Positions 1 to 7,614 of a DNA stretch of 7,614 nucleotides are shown in pieces. Position 1 is the first letter of the stretch. Each line of letters starts with the position of its first letter. The notes under the pieces were generated by a model. The model made no database searches. It was not told the origin of the DNA and worked only from the letters and a program-made list of their open reading frames with translations. Location of the stretch: contig DEUO01000030.1 of assembly GCA_002362595.1 (NCBI GenBank), positions 1 through 7,614 on the forward strand. The letters run 5' to 3'. The position numbers and the translations under genes were made by a program. Source of the stretch: Caryophanales bacterium UBA3260. GTDB lineage: Bacteria > Bacillota_I > Bacilli_A > RF39 > UBA660.

Positions 1-138
1 ATAAATGTTTTAATATTTTATTTATTATCATTATTATTTTTAAGTTATCGTATAACTTTAAAAAAGATTATATATTATGTAATTATTTTTATTACAACTA
101 TATTAGGTAGTGTTATAGGGAAAAATAAAAAGAACTAA
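1..138 (+). CDS. Possible C-terminal end of a membrane protein (partial, enters from left edge)
   Basis: Reading from base 1 in the first plus-strand frame gives 45 open codons ending in TAA at 136-138. The peptide has two hydrophobic stretches (about residues 1-16 and 23-40) separated by a short basic segment (YRITLKK) and ends in a lysine/asparagine-rich tail (GKNKKN). This resembles the last two membrane helices of an integral membrane protein with a cytoplasmic C-terminus. It would converge on the lysozyme gene, the two stop codons overlapping on opposite strands. A 45-codon open frame is unusual in DNA this AT-rich, but T-rich DNA also yields hydrophobic translations by chance. The start lies outside the window and the family is not recognisable. 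The alternative is a non-coding AT-rich spacer. Confidence 0.45.
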   Translation: MNVLIFYLLSLLFLSYRITLKKIIYYVIIFITTILGSVIGKNKKN

Positions 139-150
139 TTTAGTTCTTTT
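128..150 (-). terminator. Intrinsic terminator of the GH25 lysozyme gene, embedded in its last codons
   Basis: A perfect 10-base-pair hairpin joins 141-150 and 128-137 around a three-base loop at 138-140. Read on the minus strand it is followed by TTTTTATTTTT-like sequence down to about 121. The first arm encodes the last residues of the lysozyme and its TAG stop (135-137) forms the start of the second arm. On the plus strand the hairpin ends in TTCTTTT but is followed by GAGTTGG, so it would be a poor terminator in that direction. Confidence 0.85.
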
Positions 151-1706
151 GAGTTGGAAGTATCTTCTAATAATGTTGTTTCTTGGTTAGGTATTTTTTC
201 ATTTTCTACTTTATTTTCTTGTGTTTCTTCTTTTTCTTCTACTTGATCTTCATTATTATCTTTTAATATAGTATAAAAGTCAGTGTCTTTAATGTAATAT
301 GTTTCTTTTTCATATTCTATTCTGACGTATGAAGGATTGGTACCAGTAATAGTTATTTCTTCGTCTTTTAATTGTTTTACAATATTATTTTTTAGATAAT
401 CGTATGGTTCTCTTAGAAGAGTTACTTCTTTAGATAATTTTACTAATAAAGATTGTTCTTTAAATTGGACTTCTTCTTTATTTATTATAAAGCATTCTGT
501 ATCGTTAATATAGAAAGTATCTGAGTTATATTTGATACGAATGAAGTCATCAGACATTCCTGTTACTATTATGTTTGTTGTGGAATCCATTGTACCTGCT
601 TTATTAGGAAGGTTTGTATAAGGGCTACTTCTTAACATAACTGTTTTTGTTAGGTTAGTTGGCATATTCATATTAATGAATTCTATTTGAGGTAAATTAC
701 CAGCATTATTTATTCCATTTACGCTAGTAGATTTAGTTACATCGTTAGTTACACTAAAGTAAGCAACATTCATATCAACACGGCCATTAATACCTGGTAC
801 AGAACCATCACTTGTATATTGCCACATATGATATTTTCCACGATATGTTACTGTGTCGTTGTATTGAGCTAACCAAATTCGCTGATTAGAAAATTTAGCT
901 GTATTAAAGAATTTAGTAAAAGCGTTAGCATAACTATATATCATAGGAGTGTAACCCATTTTTTTTACGTATTCACAGAATACTAAGGCATTATCAGTCA
1001 TTGTACTATAGCTAATTCCAGTTAGACGATTTTGATTAAATACTTCTATATCAATTGCTAAAGGGTACGTTATGTCATAGTCTTTTACAACGTTTACAAG
1101 CCATTTTGCTTCTTCTAAGGCTTCACTTGAATCTCTGGCCATTGAGAAAAAGTAAACACCAACATTGATGTTATTAGCAATAGCACCTTTTATGTTATCT
1201 AAAAATCTATTATCCATAACAATAGTTCCTGAATCTAGTTTACGGAAGCCTGCTCTTATCATAGCAAATGTTACTCCGCTTTGCTTAACTTTTTTCCAGT
1301 CTATCTTTTTTTGCCAGGTTGAAACGTCGATACCAAAACTTGTTTCGTTTGTTTCATATTTTTTTACAGCAGTTTTAGCTTCTGATTTTTTAGCAACACC
1401 TTTCTTCTCTTCATTTTGCTTGATTATTTTTTCAGGATCTTCTTTATCATTTTCTTGTTGAACTACTATTGGAGTTGTCATATCGAAAGCCGTTCCTTCT
1501 TGGCCTATATTATTAATATCATCAAGACTAGCTAAAAAGTTCCATACTTCTTCATCAGTCATGTGAGATTTTTCTTTAGGTATTACAATTACATTATTAT
1601 TTTGTTTTAAGCTATTACTTATTTTTTGAGATGTAAAAGATAGTATTAATAATAATACTAGAAAAAGACAAGTTATAATATTAGTTTTATTTAAATGTTT
1701 CTTCAT
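135..1706 (-). CDS. Secreted or membrane-anchored GH25 lysozyme (muramidase) with two SH3-like repeats
   Basis: Glycoside hydrolase family 25 enzymes cleave the beta-1,4 bond between N-acetylmuramic acid and N-acetylglucosamine in peptidoglycan. This 523-residue protein starts with a basic stretch and one hydrophobic segment (about 8-27), a signal peptide or anchor without a lipobox. A hydrophilic Lys/Glu-rich linker (about 28-120) could span the wall. The catalytic domain covers about 122-318: GIDVSTW with Asp127, IDWKKVK, GVYFFSMA, the AIDIE motif with Asp219 and Glu221, and the closing VDMNVAY. The known GH25 acidic residues are thus all present and the enzyme should be active. Two related SH3-like segments follow (about 353-408 and 424-480), probably binding cell wall, then an acidic Glu/Asn/Gln tail (484-523). 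The start is supported by GGAGAG six bases upstream and by its own promoter. It may remodel the cell's own wall or act on neighbours; the sequence does not decide this. Confidence 0.93.
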   Translation of the reverse strand: MKKHLNKTNIITCLFLVLLLILSFTSQKISNSLKQNNNVIVIPKEKSHMTDEEVWNFLASLDDINNIGQEGTAFDMTTPIVVQQENDKEDPEKIIKQNEEKKGVAKKSEAKTAVKKYETNETSFGIDVSTWQKKIDWKKVKQSGVTFAMIRAGFRKLDSGTIVMDNRFLDNIKGAIANNINVGVYFFSMARDSSEALEEAKWLVNVVKDYDITYPLAIDIEVFNQNRLTGISYSTMTDNALVFCEYVKKMGYTPMIYSYANAFTKFFNTAKFSNQRIWLAQYNDTVTYRGKYHMWQYTSDGSVPGINGRVDMNVAYFSVTNDVTKSTSVNGINNAGNLPQIEFINMNMPTNLTKTVMLRSSPYTNLPNKAGTMDSTTNIIVTGMSDDFIRIKYNSDTFYINDTECFIINKEEVQFKEQSLLVKLSKEVTLLREPYDYLKNNIVKQLKDEEITITGTNPSYVRIEYEKETYYIKDTDFYTILKDNNEDQVEEKEETQENKVENEKIPNQETTLLEDTSNSKELN

Positions 1707-1712
1707 ACTTTA

Positions 1713-1718
1713 CTCTCC
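1713..1718 (-). promoter_or_regulatory. Ribosome binding site of the lysozyme gene
   Basis: GGAGAG on the minus strand lies six bases before the ATG at 1706. It sits at or almost at the predicted transcript 5' end. Confidence 0.8.
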
Positions 1719-1724
1719 ATTTTT

Positions 1725-1753
1725 AATATAACAAAGAATAGAAATTACTTCAA
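1725..1753 (-). promoter_or_regulatory. Promoter of the lysozyme gene (SigA-type, extended -10)
   Basis: On the minus strand, TTGAAG (1748-1753) and TATATT (1725-1730) are separated by 17 bases. The -10 box is preceded by TG plus one base, an extended -10. The predicted start point near 1718-1719 gives a leader of only about 12-13 bases. The promoter lies after the terminator of the upstream membrane-protein gene, so the lysozyme appears independently transcribed. Confidence 0.7.
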
Positions 1754-1767
1754 GAAAACGAAATAAA

Positions 1768-1795
1768 AAAAGACTTTATTTATGTAAAGTCTTTT
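1768..1795 (-). terminator. Intrinsic terminator of the membrane-protein gene
   Basis: An 11-base-pair perfect hairpin (1785-1795 with 1768-1778, six-base loop) is followed on the minus strand by TTTTTTATTT. Only two of the pairs are G-C. The TAA stop at 1794-1796 overlaps the base of the first arm. Confidence 0.85.
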
Positions 1796-2609
1796 AACTT
1801 ACGATATTAAAATCAGTTAAGATGTAAGAATTATTGTTTAATGTATAAGTATATTGGAATTCTAGGAATTGTTGAGTATCGTTTTGATATAAGTTAGTTA
1901 GATACATTTCTTCAGTATCAGGATAGCCAAATTCTTCTAAACGATCATCTACACCAATATATCTTTTTATACCTTTATCATTTTCAATATATTCTTGGAA
2001 ACCGTCATGGTTCTTATACATACCATATACTGTTATAATTCCACCATTTTCTGTTTTATCAATACTTTTTACTTTGTAATTATATAATTTTTTAGTACTT
2101 AAATCAGTTAATTGATCTGAACCATTTTCGTATTCTTCATTTATTTTAAATTCACCATTTGTATCATTATACTTGATAAAAGGTTGTTCAGCTTCTCCAA
2201 TATAATAATCTTCGCCTTTTATACTAATATCATTGCCTAAGATGTTAATTAGGTTATTTTTTATATCTGCTATAGATAAAGATGTATTATTATTTTTTAC
2301 TTTCATTATATCGCCTAGATATAATTTTTGATTATTATTTAGATTTGATAGATATGTTATTAGGTCAGTTTCAGTAGTTGAATATGAATATAGTGCTCTT
2401 AAAAAACCATCATTTAATTTATTAAGTTCTTGTTCAGTTAATGGCTTTGCTACTTCTGTATCTATCTTTTTTATAGCAGTAGGATTAGATTCTGATTGCT
2501 TAACTTTTTTAGAAGTTAATAAAAAAGTTAAACCTATTACTATAAATATAAGACATAGTATTACAATAACCCCGATTATATTCTTATTATCATTAGTATC
2601 GAAATCCAT
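1794..2609 (-). CDS. Single-pass membrane protein of unknown function
   Basis: I do not recognise this 271-residue protein. An acidic, Asn-rich N-terminus (1-10) is followed by one strong transmembrane segment (about 11-32) and then SKKVK. The remaining 235 or so residues are hydrophilic and probably lie outside the cell, though the topology is uncertain because the positive charges follow the helix. Residues 57-130 look mostly helical. Residues 130-271 have alternating aromatic/hydrophobic patterns and end in YTYTLNNNSYILTDFNIV, suggesting a beta-rich extracellular domain. There are no cysteines outside the membrane segment and no catalytic motif I can name. An ATG at 2633 in the same frame would add eight residues, but it has no ribosome site and lies upstream of the predicted transcript start. 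The ATG at 2609 has AGAGGTGA five bases upstream and is preferred. It has its own promoter and terminator. Its position beside the lysozyme fits an envelope role, but that is only inference. Confidence 0.85.
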   Translation of the reverse strand: MDFDTNDNKNIIGVIVILCLIFIVIGLTFLLTSKKVKQSESNPTAIKKIDTEVAKPLTEQELNKLNDGFLRALYSYSTTETDLITYLSNLNNNQKLYLGDIMKVKNNNTSLSIADIKNNLINILGNDISIKGEDYYIGEAEQPFIKYNDTNGEFKINEEYENGSDQLTDLSTKKLYNYKVKSIDKTENGGIITVYGMYKNHDGFQEYIENDKGIKRYIGVDDRLEEFGYPDTEEMYLTNLYQNDTQQFLEFQYTYTLNNNSYILTDFNIVS

Positions 2610-2614
2610 TGTTT

Positions 2615-2622
2615 TCACCTCT
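2615..2622 (-). promoter_or_regulatory. Ribosome binding site that decides the membrane-protein start
   Basis: AGAGGTGA on the minus strand is placed five bases before the ATG at 2609. The alternative in-frame ATG at 2633 has only AT-rich sequence and the -10 box around it, so the shorter protein is the better call. Confidence 0.85.
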
Positions 2623-2631
2623 ACTATATTC

Positions 2632-2661
2632 ATTATATATTATAATTCTATTTTTATTCAA
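2632..2661 (-). promoter_or_regulatory. Promoter of the membrane-protein gene with an A/T tract upstream
   Basis: On the minus strand, TTGAAT (2656-2661) is followed after 18 bases by a perfect TATAAT (2632-2637). The predicted start near 2625 gives a leader of about 16 bases. Just upstream of the -35 box, about 2664-2690, is an almost pure A/T tract with runs of six or more T and A. It could act as an UP element, although the last bases of the dehydrogenase terminator also lie close by. Confidence 0.7.
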
Positions 2662-2694
2662 GATTTTTATGTTATTTTTTAAAAAAAGATAAGA

Positions 2695-2725
2695 AAAAAA
2701 CAATAAAATTTATTTATTGTTTTTT
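2695..2725 (-). terminator. Very AT-rich intrinsic terminator of the dehydrogenase gene
   Basis: A perfect 13-base-pair hairpin (2713-2725 with 2695-2707, five-base loop 2708-2712) contains a single G-C pair. The minus strand continues TTTTTTTCTTATC, giving a T-rich exit. The first arm encodes the last four residues (KNNK), and the TAA stop (2710-2712) lies in the loop. The stem is weak, so read-through is possible. Confidence 0.65.
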
Positions 2726-4107
2726 AAAATATCTCTCGCAGCTACTAATCCAGTTGCAGCAGCAGTGACAATGTTGCCGGCTTTGCCTGCTCCATCACCA
2801 ATAAAATATATGTTATTATTTTTTAGTTTGAAATTATTATCAGTTTCTATTTCATTACTGAAGAATTTTATTTCTGGTCCATATAGTAATGTATCGTCAT
2901 TAGCAACACCAGGAATTATTTTATTTAATGTTTCTAAGCCTTCTAGAATATTAGTAATAATACGATGTGGTAATACTAAAGCTAAGTCTCCTGCTACACA
3001 GTCTTTTAAGGTAGGTTCTATAAATCCTTTATTAATACGATGCCATTCACTACGGCGACCATTTTTTAAATCTTTTAGTGACTGGATAATTGGTTTACCA
3101 TCACCTAAAACATTAGCAATACGAGCTATTGATTCACCATAAAGTCTTGTATTAGTTACAGGTTCTGTTAAATGAACTTTAGAAATAAATGCAAAATTGG
3201 TATTATTTGATTTTATTTCTTTTAGGGCATGGCCATTTACACATATATAGCCATAGTAATTTTCTTTAGCTACAAATCCACCAGGATTAGTACAGAACGT
3301 TCTTATTTCATCATTATATGTATTTGTTTTAATGAATATGGTTGGATCGTAAATTACATTAGTGATACTTTCCATTATTTCTTTTCTTACTTCTACTCTA
3401 ACACCTATTTCAATACTTTGTGAAAGATATGGAATAGAATATTTATCTGCTAGTTCTTGGATCCATTTGGCCCCAGTTCTTCCTGGAGCTACGATAACTG
3501 TTTTTGTATTGATAGTTGTTTCTTTTTTATTTGTTAAGTATGTTACTTCATGTTCGTCTTCTTTTATTGATTTAATATCTGTTACGTCTGCTCTATCTAA
3601 TAAGGTTACACCTTTATCTATTAGATAATCGCAGATACCATCAATATACTCTGGTAAGTGATCACTTCCTAGATGTTTTTGCTTTATTAATAATAATTTT
3701 GCTCCTGCTATAGCTACTTGTTTTTTTATTTCATTAGCTTCATCTATATTACTTGGGTAGACTTCAGCATCCATATTAAATTTATTAAATATCTCTTCTG
3801 TTTCATCTATTAGTTTATAGGCTTCGCTTTCACTCATGTATTTAGTTAAATCACTTTTACCTAGACGAGGTATAAAATTTAATTTGCCATCACTAAATGT
3901 TCCTGCTCCGCCATATCCAGCTAAGATAGCACAAGGATTACAGTTTTGACATGGTATACCACTTTTGTTCATAGGACATACTCTGTTTTTTACACGTGAA
4001 CCTTTATCTATGATAGCTATTTTAAGCTTAGAATTTTTAGTAATTAGTTCGTATGCACTAAATAAACCTGCTGGGCCTGCACCGATAATTACAACATCGT
4101 ACTTCAT
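2710..4107 (-). CDS. FAD-dependent dehydrogenase of the COG2509 type with a four-cysteine cluster
   Basis: This 465-residue cytoplasmic flavoprotein opens with a classic dinucleotide-binding fold: DVVIIGAGPAG (4-14) and an acidic end to the second strand (IAIIDKG, 30-36). A second flavin-fold signature is IVAPGRTG (205-212), and the C-terminal FAD-contacting motif is IYFIGDGAGKAGN (433-445). A cysteine cluster C44-x8-C53-x2-C56-x2-C59 is followed by GYGGAGTFSDGKL (64-76). That arrangement is typical of the uncharacterised FAD-dependent dehydrogenase family COG2509, and the length is usual for it. The substrate is unknown. The four cysteines could hold an iron-sulfur cluster or zinc, which is inference. 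The start has AAGGAG eight bases upstream. The gene begins 47 bases after the giant sigma-like gene with no terminator and no convincing promoter between, suggesting co-transcription. It is an intact, ordinary-looking gene. Confidence 0.92.
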   Translation of the reverse strand: MKYDVVIIGAGPAGLFSAYELITKNSKLKIAIIDKGSRVKNRVCPMNKSGIPCQNCNPCAILAGYGGAGTFSDGKLNFIPRLGKSDLTKYMSESEAYKLIDETEEIFNKFNMDAEVYPSNIDEANEIKKQVAIAGAKLLLIKQKHLGSDHLPEYIDGICDYLIDKGVTLLDRADVTDIKSIKEDEHEVTYLTNKKETTINTKTVIVAPGRTGAKWIQELADKYSIPYLSQSIEIGVRVEVRKEIMESITNVIYDPTIFIKTNTYNDEIRTFCTNPGGFVAKENYYGYICVNGHALKEIKSNNTNFAFISKVHLTEPVTNTRLYGESIARIANVLGDGKPIIQSLKDLKNGRRSEWHRINKGFIEPTLKDCVAGDLALVLPHRIITNILEGLETLNKIIPGVANDDTLLYGPEIKFFSNEIETDNNFKLKNNNIYFIGDGAGKAGNIVTAAATGLVAARDILKNNK

Positions 4108-4115
4108 TTTATCAT

Positions 4116-4121
4116 CTCCTT
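4116..4121 (-). promoter_or_regulatory. Ribosome binding site of the dehydrogenase gene
   Basis: AAGGAG on the minus strand is eight bases before the ATG at 4107 and is the strongest ribosome binding site in the window. Upstream TATGAT and TAAAAT could pass as -10 boxes but lack a -35 partner, so I do not call a promoter here. Confidence 0.85.
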
Positions 4122-4154
4122 ATAAATTTTATCATATTATTTATGAACTTTCTA

Positions 4155-7100
4155 CTATTGTTCTTCTAATTTTAAGCGATAGCTTTTGCCTTTATCAACA
4201 AATAATAGTTGACGTTCTATTAAACTATTTATAATACGGTATACATGGTTAATATCTCTTCCATCAAGATTGCCATAAGGATTTACTATGTCACTTAATG
4301 TATGTTTAGTTTTACTATCTAAAATATAATTAGGATTATTTAGAATGGATTTTATTTCTTCTTTACTAGCAGTAGATAGATGAAATAAGTTTGCTTCTCT
4401 TTCTTTTAATAAATCATATGTTATCATTGTTGGTATTTTTGATTTTTTACCATTTATTTCTTGAGTGTTATTTATTCTTTTAAAGAAACGTTCGTAATAT
4501 ACTTTATGAATACAATCCATTTCATCTTTATGTCTTTCATAGTAAGATATTATTTCTTCTAGAGTAAATTCATTTGTTTTTTTTATGCCTTCTCTTAGCT
4601 TACAAACACTAACCATTAATTGATAAATAGAATTATTAATAGCTGTTGTTTGTTGAGGTAAGTTTAGTCTTTCTTTTATTTCAGGAATTGATAAACGACG
4701 CATTTCGCTGATACCGAAATATAAATCAAATATTTCAGTTGCGACTTTTAAATCTCCATAGAAAGGCAAATCTGGGCTTTTAATAGCTTCTTGATAATAA
4801 TCAAAGTCAAATTTTTTATCTGTTTTGCCATGAGTTATTTCATAAATATTTATTCTTAATCTGTTTATTATAGCAATAGTCATTTCTCTAGTAAGATGAT
4901 ATTTTTCTCCTAGTGCTTCGTAAGATAAATTATTTTTAAAATAATCATAGATGAAGACGCGATCACTATTACTAAAATATTTTAGGTATGGTACTATATC
5001 TGTTTCAAAATCCATTTGTTCATCTAGTTCACCATTTAGATATTTCTTTATATTAACTATTGCTCGGTAATATCTTCTTCTTACACTATTTTTTAAATCA
5101 CCTAGTTCTTTACTTAATTCATTTAAACTTTTATATTCATGATTGTTTAAAGCAAATAGAGAGTTTATTATATAACGTTCTTTATCACTTATAGGGAGAT
5201 GTCTATCTTCTAAGATAGTAGTTAATTCTTCACGAGTAAAGACAGATAAATCTGGAGATAAGGCGCCTATTTTACGTAGTTTTATCTTATCTGTACTTTC
5301 ATATATAGTGTGATAGAATGTATAATTTGAAATAGATAAAAGTTTTTGAATATCTTTGCTTTCTAGATGTTTACCAGTTTTATTGTATTTAGTTTTAATA
5401 CCATAATATAAAGATAATACTTGTTGTTCTCTTTCAGTTAAAACTGTATCAGTAAAATGGCGATGTAATTCACGAGATATATCTTTAGATGAAATTGTTA
5501 CATTTTTTATAAGCAATTTGTCATGTAAGTCATATAGATGTTGCATTGCTCTATTTACATTAATACGTGGAATATTTAGAATTACAGCAATCGCTTCATT
5601 AGAGTTTCCATAATTATATCTTAAGGAATAGATTTCTTTTTCTTCTTCAGTTATTTTATCACCGAATAATTTATAAATATCTTTTAAGGTGACTGTGGAT
5701 ATTTTTCTAGCTTTTAGAACACCTAAACGATAATGATCTATTTTTCTTATTCCGTCTGTAATAATATTAGATATTCTTGTTCTATTTAATCCTGTTCTTT
5801 TAGATATTTCTTCATAATCTAAGTCTTGTTCTAAAAACATAATTAATATTTTTCTAGTTTCATCTGTATAGTCATATTGTTCACTTAGATATGGAAGATA
5901 ATCTTTTTTAGTTATTTCTATTTTATGTTTTTTATTTATATAGATATTAATTGCTGCTTCTCTAGCATCACTTATCATATCATGAACTTTAATGTAAGTA
6001 AGAGATGGGTATAGCTTGGCGATTTCTTTAATAGATAATGGGTCGCTATCTACACCATAAAATAAGTCTAGAAGATGGACTCTTTCTTCAGTATGTCTTT
6101 CTTGATATTTAGAACGAATAAGGAGCCATTTTGCTCTATTAAAATCGTTATCTAGGAAATTATTAATGTTATAATATAGTTTTTCTAAACGATTAGTTAA
6201 CATGTAATAACGATAGTATAATTTACTATCAGGATATTTTTTAATAAATTCACGTTTATCTTTCTTTTTAAAATAATAGCATTCTAAAAATAAACGTTGA
6301 GATTCATCAAATTCATCTATGTGATCAAGATATGTTTGATAATATTTTTGAGGATGTAAGTCTTCTTTACTTGCTTTATAGCCGAATAAGTTTAGATTAA
6401 CATCTCTTTCTATATCTTCTACTTCAGCACTATATCTACCTACTTTATAATAGTATTTATATAAAAGTTTTTTTTCGTTATCTGTAAGATAAGCACAGTC
6501 ATCATCTAAGAATTTTTTTATATCATCAAAAGTTAATAAATTAACGGCTTCTTTTATAGTTGAAAAGTCAAATTTTTTATAACTTTCACTTTTTACTAAA
6601 TTATATACATATGGTCCATATAAATTTAACATTTCTTCTTTAAATTCTAAGTAATCTGGTGATTGGGATGCGGTTGATATTTTTTCATTTAGAGAAGTAC
6701 TTAAAGCAAGAAGTTCTTGTTCAGTTAGTTTTAAGCTAGAACATAATTCATTAGTAAAATATGAATATTTACTAAATACTTGATAATAATATAGTCTTTG
6801 TTCTTCATGAGTTAAAGAATCTTTTAAGTAGAAATATATTATAATGCTATCTATTGAATATGGAGTTACTTTTATACGAGAAGATTTATTTCCTTCTCTT
6901 TCTTTAATACTATATATACGGCGTTTTAATCTTTTGTCGTCATTAGCAAGAAATGTTTCTAATGTTTCTAAAGCGAAGATATATCTTTTTCTTGCTTCTA
7001 ATAAATCAATGTTCAATTTAGAACTTATTTCTTCGATAGGTATTCCTGAAACCATTTGATAGAATACATAATATATGTCTGGGTCAAGGGAATCTTTTAA

Positions 7101-7496
7101 AACTTTTAGAATGTTTTCATCTATTTCTAAATTTATGAAAGAAAATGAGTCTTTTTTATTATTTATTTTTACTCTTTTTATATAACGTAAGGCTTCTCTA
7201 GCAATTAGTCTATTAATATCTTTCTCATATGAATAGATAGATGTACATATTTGCATTCTTTGAAATAAGCAACTATTAATATATTTAATCATATCATCTA
7301 TATCATATATACTTTTTTTAGCACAGAATTTAAGGACGTAGTTAATAACATTTTTATAATAGCTTTTTAGTAAGGTATACATTGAGGCGTTATCGCCATT
7401 TTGGTAAGCATTAAATAAACGTTCTTTTTCTTTTATTGATAGTGAAAATGAATTATTTTCTATCTCTTGATATTCTTGGATACTAATTTTAGACAT
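4155..7496 (-). CDS. Giant sigma-70-like protein with tandem region-4-like helix-turn-helix units
   Basis: This 1113-residue protein resembles a sigma factor at its N-terminus and then continues far beyond the 180-600 residues usual for that family. Residues 21-110 look like a diverged sigma region 2: LFNAYQNGDNASMYTLL, then DIDDMI where sigma factors have a D/E-D-L/I-QE motif, then INRLIAREALRYIKR. Residues 128-185 look like region 4. About ten diverged copies of a similar unit follow between 211 and 1050; the clearest are LTEREQQVLSLYYGI (686-700) and KITEEEKEIYSLRY (614-627). The C-terminal 50 or so residues may form a winged helix. There is no signal peptide or membrane segment, so it should be cytoplasmic and probably binds DNA and/or RNA polymerase. 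Whether it acts as a real sigma factor is doubtful, because the region 2 promoter-melting residues are poorly kept. The start at 7496 has AAAGGTGG before it; an in-frame ATG at 7541 overlaps the -35 box and is rejected. I know of no named family with this layout. Confidence 0.85.
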   Translation of the reverse strand: MSKISIQEYQEIENNSFSLSIKEKERLFNAYQNGDNASMYTLLKSYYKNVINYVLKFCAKKSIYDIDDMIKYINSCLFQRMQICTSIYSYEKDINRLIAREALRYIKRVKINNKKDSFSFINLEIDENILKVLKDSLDPDIYYVFYQMVSGIPIEEISSKLNIDLLEARKRYIFALETLETFLANDDKRLKRRIYSIKEREGNKSSRIKVTPYSIDSIIIYFYLKDSLTHEEQRLYYYQVFSKYSYFTNELCSSLKLTEQELLALSTSLNEKISTASQSPDYLEFKEEMLNLYGPYVYNLVKSESYKKFDFSTIKEAVNLLTFDDIKKFLDDDCAYLTDNEKKLLYKYYYKVGRYSAEVEDIERDVNLNLFGYKASKEDLHPQKYYQTYLDHIDEFDESQRLFLECYYFKKKDKREFIKKYPDSKLYYRYYMLTNRLEKLYYNINNFLDNDFNRAKWLLIRSKYQERHTEERVHLLDLFYGVDSDPLSIKEIAKLYPSLTYIKVHDMISDAREAAINIYINKKHKIEITKKDYLPYLSEQYDYTDETRKILIMFLEQDLDYEEISKRTGLNRTRISNIITDGIRKIDHYRLGVLKARKISTVTLKDIYKLFGDKITEEEKEIYSLRYNYGNSNEAIAVILNIPRINVNRAMQHLYDLHDKLLIKNVTISSKDISRELHRHFTDTVLTEREQQVLSLYYGIKTKYNKTGKHLESKDIQKLLSISNYTFYHTIYESTDKIKLRKIGALSPDLSVFTREELTTILEDRHLPISDKERYIINSLFALNNHEYKSLNELSKELGDLKNSVRRRYYRAIVNIKKYLNGELDEQMDFETDIVPYLKYFSNSDRVFIYDYFKNNLSYEALGEKYHLTREMTIAIINRLRINIYEITHGKTDKKFDFDYYQEAIKSPDLPFYGDLKVATEIFDLYFGISEMRRLSIPEIKERLNLPQQTTAINNSIYQLMVSVCKLREGIKKTNEFTLEEIISYYERHKDEMDCIHKVYYERFFKRINNTQEINGKKSKIPTMITYDLLKEREANLFHLSTASKEEIKSILNNPNYILDSKTKHTLSDIVNPYGNLDGRDINHVYRIINSLIERQLLFVDKGKSYRLKLEEQ
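4593..6344 (-). repeat. Coding repeat array: eight clear region-4-like units in the giant sigma-like protein
   Basis: Residues 385-968 divide into units starting near 385, 452, 529, 602, 669, 753, 829 and 898, spaced 67-84 residues apart. Each begins with a short helix of the form aromatic/Thr-x-x-D/E-hydrophobic. It is followed by an E/D-rich segment with an aromatic end (for example LTEREQQVLSLYYGI, HTEERVHLLDLFYGV, LKVATEIFDLYFGI), then a helix-turn-helix-like part (LSIKEIAKLYP, LDYEEISKRTGLNRTRISNII, LSYEALGEKYHLTREMT). Likely weaker copies lie at about 128-185, 211-275, 323-375 and 977-1050. I noticed no repeat at DNA level, so the duplications are old. Confidence 0.7.
7167..7436 (-). 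other. Sigma region-2-like domain of the giant protein
   Basis: This stretch encodes residues 21-110. The order of motifs matches sigma region 2: an acidic/basic first helix (IKEKERLFNAYQNGD), a hydrophobic helix (YKNVINYVLKFC), the acidic DIDDMI, then a basic helix (IAREALRYIKR). The tryptophans and aromatic cluster of region 2.3-2.4 that melt the -10 element are not obvious. The domain may therefore keep the core-polymerase-binding part and have lost promoter opening; this is inferred from motif inspection only. Confidence 0.55.
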
Positions 7497-7500
7497 AAAA

Positions 7501-7508
7501 CCACCTTT
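7501..7508 (-). promoter_or_regulatory. Ribosome binding site that decides the start of the giant sigma-like gene
   Basis: AAAGGTGG on the minus strand lies four bases before the ATG at 7496. The in-frame ATG at 7541 has no ribosome site and lies within the promoter, so the 1113-residue form is preferred. Confidence 0.8.
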
Positions 7509-7512
7509 TGTT

Positions 7513-7541
7513 ATTATACAAGTAAATTGTAATGTAAACAA
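7513..7541 (-). promoter_or_regulatory. Promoter of the giant sigma-like gene and probably the dehydrogenase
   Basis: On the minus strand, TTGTTT (7536-7541) and a perfect TATAAT (7513-7518) are separated by 17 bases. The expected start point near 7506-7507 gives a leader of only about 10-11 bases, with the ribosome binding site at its very 5' end. The promoter lies just downstream of the terminator at the right edge, so transcription appears to restart here. Confidence 0.75.
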
Positions 7542-7568
7542 GAAAAAGAGATATATTAGAAAGAAAAA

Positions 7569-7598
7569 AAGTAGCTTATATTTTAAGATAAGCTACTT
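7569..7598 (-). terminator. Intrinsic terminator of an unseen upstream minus-strand gene
   Basis: A perfect 11-base-pair hairpin (7588-7598 with 7569-7579, eight-base loop) is followed on the minus strand by TTTTTTTCTTTC. The polarity shows that a minus-strand transcript enters from the right of the window. Stop codons occur in all three minus frames between 7597 and 7613, so at most a few final codons of that gene are inside the window and none can be called. Confidence 0.8.
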
Positions 7599-7614
7599 AT
7601 AAATTATTATTTAT

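Follow-up and report, generated by a model that had tools for sequence, protein, structure and literature searches.

A giant sigma-70-like protein with about ten sigma-4-type units in a Caryophanales bacterium

To our knowledge, sigma factors carry one sigma-4 domain, so that a promoter is read at a single -35 element, and a literature search (titles and abstract starts, with most subscription journals outside its scope) found no description of a sigma factor bearing multiple region 4 domains. We analysed a 7,614-nucleotide stretch of Caryophanales bacterium UBA3260 (contig DEUO01000030.1, positions 1 to 7,614; the window), in which a minus-strand open reading frame (7496-4155) encodes a giant sigma-factor-like protein of 1113 amino acids (aa), P0001. 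Like the sigma-70 factors of groups 1-3 (SigA/RpoD, RpoS and SigF), this protein combines sigma-2 and sigma-4 folds, and 13 of 35 family members retain the canonical motifs; unlike them, it has about ten sigma-4-type units where they have one, its own clade lacks the -10/-35 motifs, and the carrier genomes examined have a separate RpoD as housekeeping factor. Extracytoplasmic function (ECF) sigma factors with C-terminal extensions likewise join a sigma core to an added C-terminal module, which in the part of PMC8999054 that describes them is sensory or protein-binding, whereas the extension of the giant protein is multiplied sigma-4. An ECF core moreover consists of sigma-2 and sigma-4 only, whereas Pfam finds regions 1.2, 2 and 4 on the relative P0007 and regions 1.2, 2, 3 and 4 on P0018, and relatives often have region 3. 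The fold of units U6 and U7 is shared with YlxM/UPF0122 (1xsv_A) and KorA/TrfB (5clv_M, 2w7n_B), but these are small stand-alone proteins, the first of which we take to be YlxM and both of which we take to be dimers, whereas the units of the giant are chained to a sigma core. The sigma-4 fold and the sigma core are thus known; only the way they are combined, and the use to which this is likely put, are new.

The anatomy of the giant protein, a sigma-2 domain followed by ten sigma-4-type four-helix units, is well supported. The initial annotation had read the frame as sigma region 2 plus about ten region-4-type helix-turn-helix (HTH) units, and this was confirmed by profile searches that found region 4 in the repeated units, by a predicted structure of four-helix HTH units and by 17 relatives covering 86-100% of the 1113 residues. 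Pfam run on the single window sequence returned Sigma70_r4 at E 1.7e-17 in three stretches and Sigma70_r4_2 at 1.1e-9 in two, and sigma-4 matches were recovered in 3 of 10 separate pieces spanning residues 116-900. When the profile of the 35-member family was compared with a region-4 profile that drew on the RpoD and small sigma factors of its own Bacilli order, matches fell in the first half at residues 130-190 (97%), 233-281 (67%), 462-518 (36%) and 550-593 (54%), and in the second half at residues 606-657 (81%), 691-746 (92%), 763-814 (82%) and 852-897 (37%). Four further matches stayed below 4%, and the maximum of five column-shuffled controls was 1.5%. Leave-one-out profiles recovered eight units, a ninth at residues 924-987 scored 13-78% across these profiles, and residues 390-431, 330-376 and 1053-1095 scored below 25%; the tenth unit was identified by structure alone. 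The 35-member set comprised the 18 architecture-sharing proteins and 17 hand-chosen loci; it leaves out near-duplicates (L005, L009, L041-L043, L052, L108, L109), members that are partial or split (L053-L055) and later finds (L128, L134, L136, L139 and others).

Predicted structure pointed in the same direction. A four-unit fragment spanning U6-U9 was predicted with a pLDDT (predicted local distance difference test score) of 94 and a pTM (predicted template modelling score) of 0.83, and each of its units superposes at 1.3-2.4 Å on a DNA-binding domain of sigma-4 or sigma-4-like type with a solved structure, namely 8jzt_A, 1rp3_A, operator-bound 5clv_M, 4g6d_A (sigma-A domain 4) and 1ku3 (region 4). 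Foldseek gave no match at E < 0.001 with either the whole model or the fragment, and the matches listed were mostly sigma factors or single HTH proteins. An alpha-solenoid of another fold, such as TPR or HEAT, would consist of two- or three-helix repeats, and the model shows units of four helices; no such solenoid was among the matches listed, a limited set whose silence does not tell against one. Against PDB sequences the U6-U9 fragment profile gave nothing significant, DesR being best at 0.016, followed by calcium-carrier chains at 0.023 and 0.036, with sigma factors appearing only from 0.19. Sigma-2 is present in the family by profile (99.9%), and the sigma-2 fold of the window protein matches 9e84_F at 2.7 Å over 108 residues; Pfam on P0001 reports no region 2. 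A second region-2 domain in the middle of the protein, hinted at weakly by Pfam (0.17), was rejected, as the region 2 profile has one real match.

The units follow one another in order on the minus strand, as do all window features given below. A sigma 1.2-2-like domain (residues 1-111; 7164..7496) has kept its fold and lost its -10/melting motif. U1 (residues 127-183; 6948..7118) sits at the canonical region 4 position and was recovered at 75% in the leave-one-out comparison; the motif TRERxRQxE is lost here, and the fold is predicted to be kept all the same. U2 (residues 215-277; 6666..6854) was recovered at 82% and is present in the predicted structure, after which an irregular helical stretch (residues 280-380; 6357..6659) is predicted with a low-confidence hinge at 303-310, approximately where the stand-alone sigma modules of relatives end. 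The four helices of U4 (residues 382-441; 6174..6353) come from the predicted structure, with a weak profile match of 17%, and U5 (residues 454-524; 5925..6137) was recovered at 67% and is likewise seen in the model. The next four units are U6 (residues 530-590; 5727..5909; Pfam Sigma70_r4 at 1.1e-6, leave-one-out 90%), the KorA/sigma-4-like U7 (residues 601-662; 5511..5696; Sigma70_r4_2 at 5.2e-5, 86%), U8 (residues 670-742; 5271..5489; Sigma70_r4 at 0.004, 89%, and 4g6d_A at 2.0 Å over 62 residues) and U9 (residues 755-820; 5037..5234; 82%, and 1ku3 at 1.6 Å over 59). U10 (residues 830-889; 4830..5009) was recovered at 89% and is present in the model, as is U11 (residues 898-968; 4593..4805), which scored 13-78% in eight leave-one-out runs although it was never included in the profile. 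The C-terminal helical region (residues 979-1094; 4215..4562) is not clearly region 4.

The units differ in their apparent potential to bind DNA. Basic residues are conserved in at least 85% of the 35 members at positions 584, 585 and 590 of the last helix of U6, at 739 and 742 of U8, and at 807, 808, 811 and 818 of U9, whose recognition helix is strongly basic (R807, R808, R811). In U2, U4, U5 and U10 the mean net charge of the last helix is just +0.4 to +1.0, compared to +5.0 for U9, +3.8 for U8, +3.5 for U1, +2.6 for U7, +2.4 for U6 and +2.0 for U11; in the window's clade the value for U1 falls to +0.2. Because charge and conserved basic residues vary in this way among the units, perhaps half of them are ready DNA binders, and the remainder may serve as spacers or protein contacts. 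Within a 12-member clade, the first ten residues of the last helix are conserved at 0.77-0.87 in U4, U5 and U6. As a trend only, the recognition helices of these three units look fixed and those of U2, U10 and U11 variable; permutation tests gave p < 0.05, uncorrected, for only U5 of the ten units.

The core of the protein has fared differently in different lineages. FSTYAxxWIxQ is the region 2.3/2.4 melting and -10 motif, and TRERxRQxE the region 4.2 -35 motif. Strictly scored, the region 2.2 motif LDxIQEGN is present in 21 of the 35 members, FSTYAxxWIxQ in 14 and TRERxRQxE in 16, with all three intact in 13; labelled by eye, 19 cores are near-intact (canonical), 4 partial and 12 eroded. None of the three motifs is found in any of the five members of the window's clade, nor in the neighbouring P0006. 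In all five, a gap spans most of the FSTYAxxW segment and TRERxRQxE is absent, and LDxIQEGN is replaced by DDMIKYIN in three and by variants in two. The label 'sigma-like' therefore stands for the window protein, whereas 'sigma factor' is probably apt only for those relatives whose core is intact. On a tree of the array part, five changes of the eroded label are needed, two of them forced by well-supported branches, so core erosion may have happened more than once; the long branches of this tree make that uncertain. One relative of 978 aa (L144) starts at U1 without region 2, and the 9-kb stretch around it yielded no sigma-2 gene of more than 150 aa. Conversely, relatives of ~400 aa at L112, L141, L111, L113 and L114 consist only of the sigma core, U1 and U2, and stop near one common boundary. 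Two such core proteins lie in tandem at L112, one of them reaching the end of the fetched stretch, and two lie upstream of a separate array frame at L141; in a 631-aa protein at L111 the U1-U2 module is repeated. At L110 (1178-4381, minus strand), core and array occupy consecutive frames split by one stop codon and are followed by a 302-aa sigma factor. This split may be natural, a mutation or an error in the sequence.

The full architecture is shared by 18 proteins of 1094-1225 aa, P0001 among them, and the four close relatives of the window protein (1094-1114 aa) are 61-70% identical to it. A wider protein search (28-row alignment, a subset of the 35 members; 7996 candidates scored) returned the same 18 and seven more. 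One of the seven is P0019 (606 aa, E 3.9e-208); the others are six long sigma factors, with E values from 6e-54 to 2e-20, whose matches cover little of P0001. Ten loci lie in genome contigs of metagenome-assembled genomes titled Bacilli, Tenericutes, Bacillota or Candidatus Coprovivens; the genomic stretches of relatives were hand-picked. Of 385 sampled genomes of the order, which may be RF39, 16 contain a match to the array profile, as do 7 of 193 of the family, and a class-level sample gave strong array matches in 2 of 395 genomes, with five more holding short matches (1.5e-7 to 8.7e-6), four of these with internal stops. Each genome search scored only the best few candidates per genome, and the first scored two. 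A separate canonical RpoD of 361-366 aa is encoded in all ten carrier genomes G001-G010, a set that excludes the genomes of P0007 and of the window, and the giant is therefore not the housekeeping sigma factor there. The same ten genomes encode further small sigma factors, some of which, in our own reading, resemble sporulation factors. Public names include RNA polymerase sigma factor RpoD/SigA of Candidatus Coprovivens for P0007, which the ten separate RpoD proteins make a probable misnomer, and sigma-70 family factor of a Bacilli bacterium for another relative. At L108 (5344-12607, plus strand) two full-length giants of 1210 and 1209 aa, 38% identical, adjoin in one genome.

We give roughly even odds (a probability of about 0.5) to the view that the giant proteins are alternative sigma factors with a built-in multi-site DNA-binding arm that have become array-type DNA-binding regulators in the window's clade. 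By multiplication of its -35-reading sigma-4 domain, a sigma-70-derived family would have gained nine additional HTH units, arranged as an ordered array at the C-terminus. Core-intact members would most likely load on RNA polymerase as alternative sigma factors, with -10 and -35 elements read by sigma-2 and the first sigma-4, and with the array reaching upstream as a DNA-binding arm to occupy multiple sub-sites in their own promoters. The window's clade lacks the -10, melting and first -35 motifs but keeps the array at near-constant length, so there the protein would most likely be a multi-site regulator of a long composite site whose contact with RNA polymerase is weakened or lost. Conservation between clades is distributed unevenly: residues 361-1020 are alike at 0.27-0.53 per 60-residue block (at least 0.37 in 9 of 11 blocks), compared to just 0.22-0.28 for residues 1-360, and residues 1021-1080 are no better conserved than the latter. 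In one close pair the ratio of nonsynonymous to synonymous substitution rates (dN/dS) fell from 0.50 (residues 1-310) through 0.40 (311-560) to 0.21-0.24 (561-1213). The overall value of 0.31 in this pair indicates that the giant is under purifying selection even though it changes fast.

A more tentative proposal, to which we give clearly less weight, is that the array is a modular DNA reader in its own right, the multiplied -35 domain forming a ten-unit counterpart in bacteria of zinc-finger arrays and recognising a long composite operator. On this view at least one relative has dropped sigma-2, the window's clade has lost the motifs that read promoters, and some units would be fixed and others free to take on new specificity. 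The window protein might instead still function as a sigma factor, under altered promoter rules, its residual sigma-2 holding the beta-prime coiled coil and other units replacing the -35 reader. Its retained sigma-2 fold, and identities of 0.49 and 0.67 for blocks 1-60 and 61-120 within the window's clade, are what such a factor would show, but the loss of FSTYAxxW and TRERxRQxE from all five clade members and their altered region 2.2 motif make this unlikely.

Two further alternatives assign the array to something other than reading specific sites, and we consider them about equally improbable. A nucleoid-type protein, bridging or coating DNA largely regardless of sequence, would be in keeping with ten HTH units per chain and several basic last helices; however, the overall charge is near neutral, the starts of the last helices of U4, U5 and U6 are conserved and not generic, and presence in 16 of the 385 genomes of the order is unlike a housekeeping architectural protein. 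The sigma-4 folds could also form a protein-binding scaffold that docks on the beta flap, activators or anti-sigma factors and so titrates polymerase or sigma. The beta flap and activators are known binding partners of sigma-4 (PMC4598750), and several units lack a basic last helix, but the arginines that U6 and U9 conserve in their last helices look like DNA contacts.

Still less probable is a conflict-driven regulator or defence factor, directed for example against phages. Such a role would explain both the patchy presence and the fast divergence of the giant, which is only 36-51% identical among five loci (the window included) where the adjacent flavin adenine dinucleotide (FAD)-dependent oxidoreductase-like gene is 87-94% identical. 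Moreover, the sigma core of P0007 (residues 40-273) matches positions 416-656 of the PADLOC model MzaA (PDLC02203) at 4.8e-25; MzaA thus seems to carry a sigma-type core, and a core of this type occurs in a candidate defence protein. Weaker PADLOC matches of P0007 were to typeIV_Cas11 (2.3e-5, residues 56-130) and mad1 (0.0064, residues 800-829). However, the MzaA model leaves the array part unmatched, and P0001 matches no PADLOC model. Nor did P0001 match any phage record, even at E 1; P0007 matches 146, none covering 80%, and the 30 listed all fall within residues 1-263, in the sigma core. A phage origin was rejected on this ground and because a search of viral contigs gave no relative. The giant also lies among genes read as housekeeping in four loci, and beside the FAD gene in the window. 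Its divergence does not single it out, since neighbours diverge fast too: a 286-aa gene (41-65% identity), downstream repeat-protein genes (38-69%), a small gene (65-87%) and a presumed M50-like gene (62-67%). A decaying sigma factor or pseudogene is very improbable, as the eroded core motifs of several lineages and the split frames of a few relatives (L110, L141) are outweighed by a full open frame, a conserved array and the four close relatives of near-constant length.

The four loci just mentioned (L002, L004, L005 and L009) share with the window the order of giant followed by FAD gene, and in them this pair is preceded by a run of genes that we take to be rplU, a small gene, rpmA and obg. 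The 286-aa gene lies between obg and the giant in three of the four, and two more open reading frames lie there in L002. Among these loci obg is 83-89% identical, rplU 90-99% and the RpoD of the genomes 92-98%. After the FAD gene each holds two or three fast-diverging, secreted-looking repeat proteins.

The window itself consists of four consecutive minus-strand genes. The giant comes first (4155..7496), and next downstream is the FAD-dependent oxidoreductase-like gene (2710..4107), followed by a protein of no clear family (1794..2633) and a GH25-type lysozyme-like protein (135..1706), both with an N-terminal hydrophobic stretch. An intrinsic terminator-like hairpin (7569..7598) upstream of the giant and a ribosome site, AAAAGGTGG, read by eye before its ATG suggest that the giant probably opens its own transcript. 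A promoter-like site, TTGTTT-17-TATAAT, was read by eye directly upstream (7513..7541; first hexamer 3/6). It was not among the sites of a promoter scan of 4050-7614, which, at 29 sites against 27.1 expected, carries no information.

A family with about ten sigma-4 units, together with a series running from intact sigma factors to an array devoid of sigma-2, would trace a path by which an initiation factor can become an array-type regulator, and it offers a system in which sigma and activator roles can be tested in one polypeptide. A long, partly repeated C-terminus also follows the sigma core in three further long sigma factors from this order, L099, L103 and L097, but the repeats of L099 are Helicase-associated (HA) domains and those of L103 another unit of ~90 residues. 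With one sigma factor in the order bearing seven HA domains, repeat arrays may have been added to sigma factors there more than once. That protein (L099:1085-3871, minus strand; 929 aa) carries regions 1.2, 2, 3 and 4, then seven HA stretches (PF03457, E 1.3e-116). In the 1351-aa sigma factor at L103 (3040-7092, minus strand), region 4 is followed by a run of very similar ~90-residue units (IYDYLSEYSKED..., by eye), the first half of which weakly resembles region 4. The 1703-aa protein at L097 (375-5483, plus strand) has one complete sigma core at residues 232-491, and close to its C-terminus it shows weak matches of region-4-like type.

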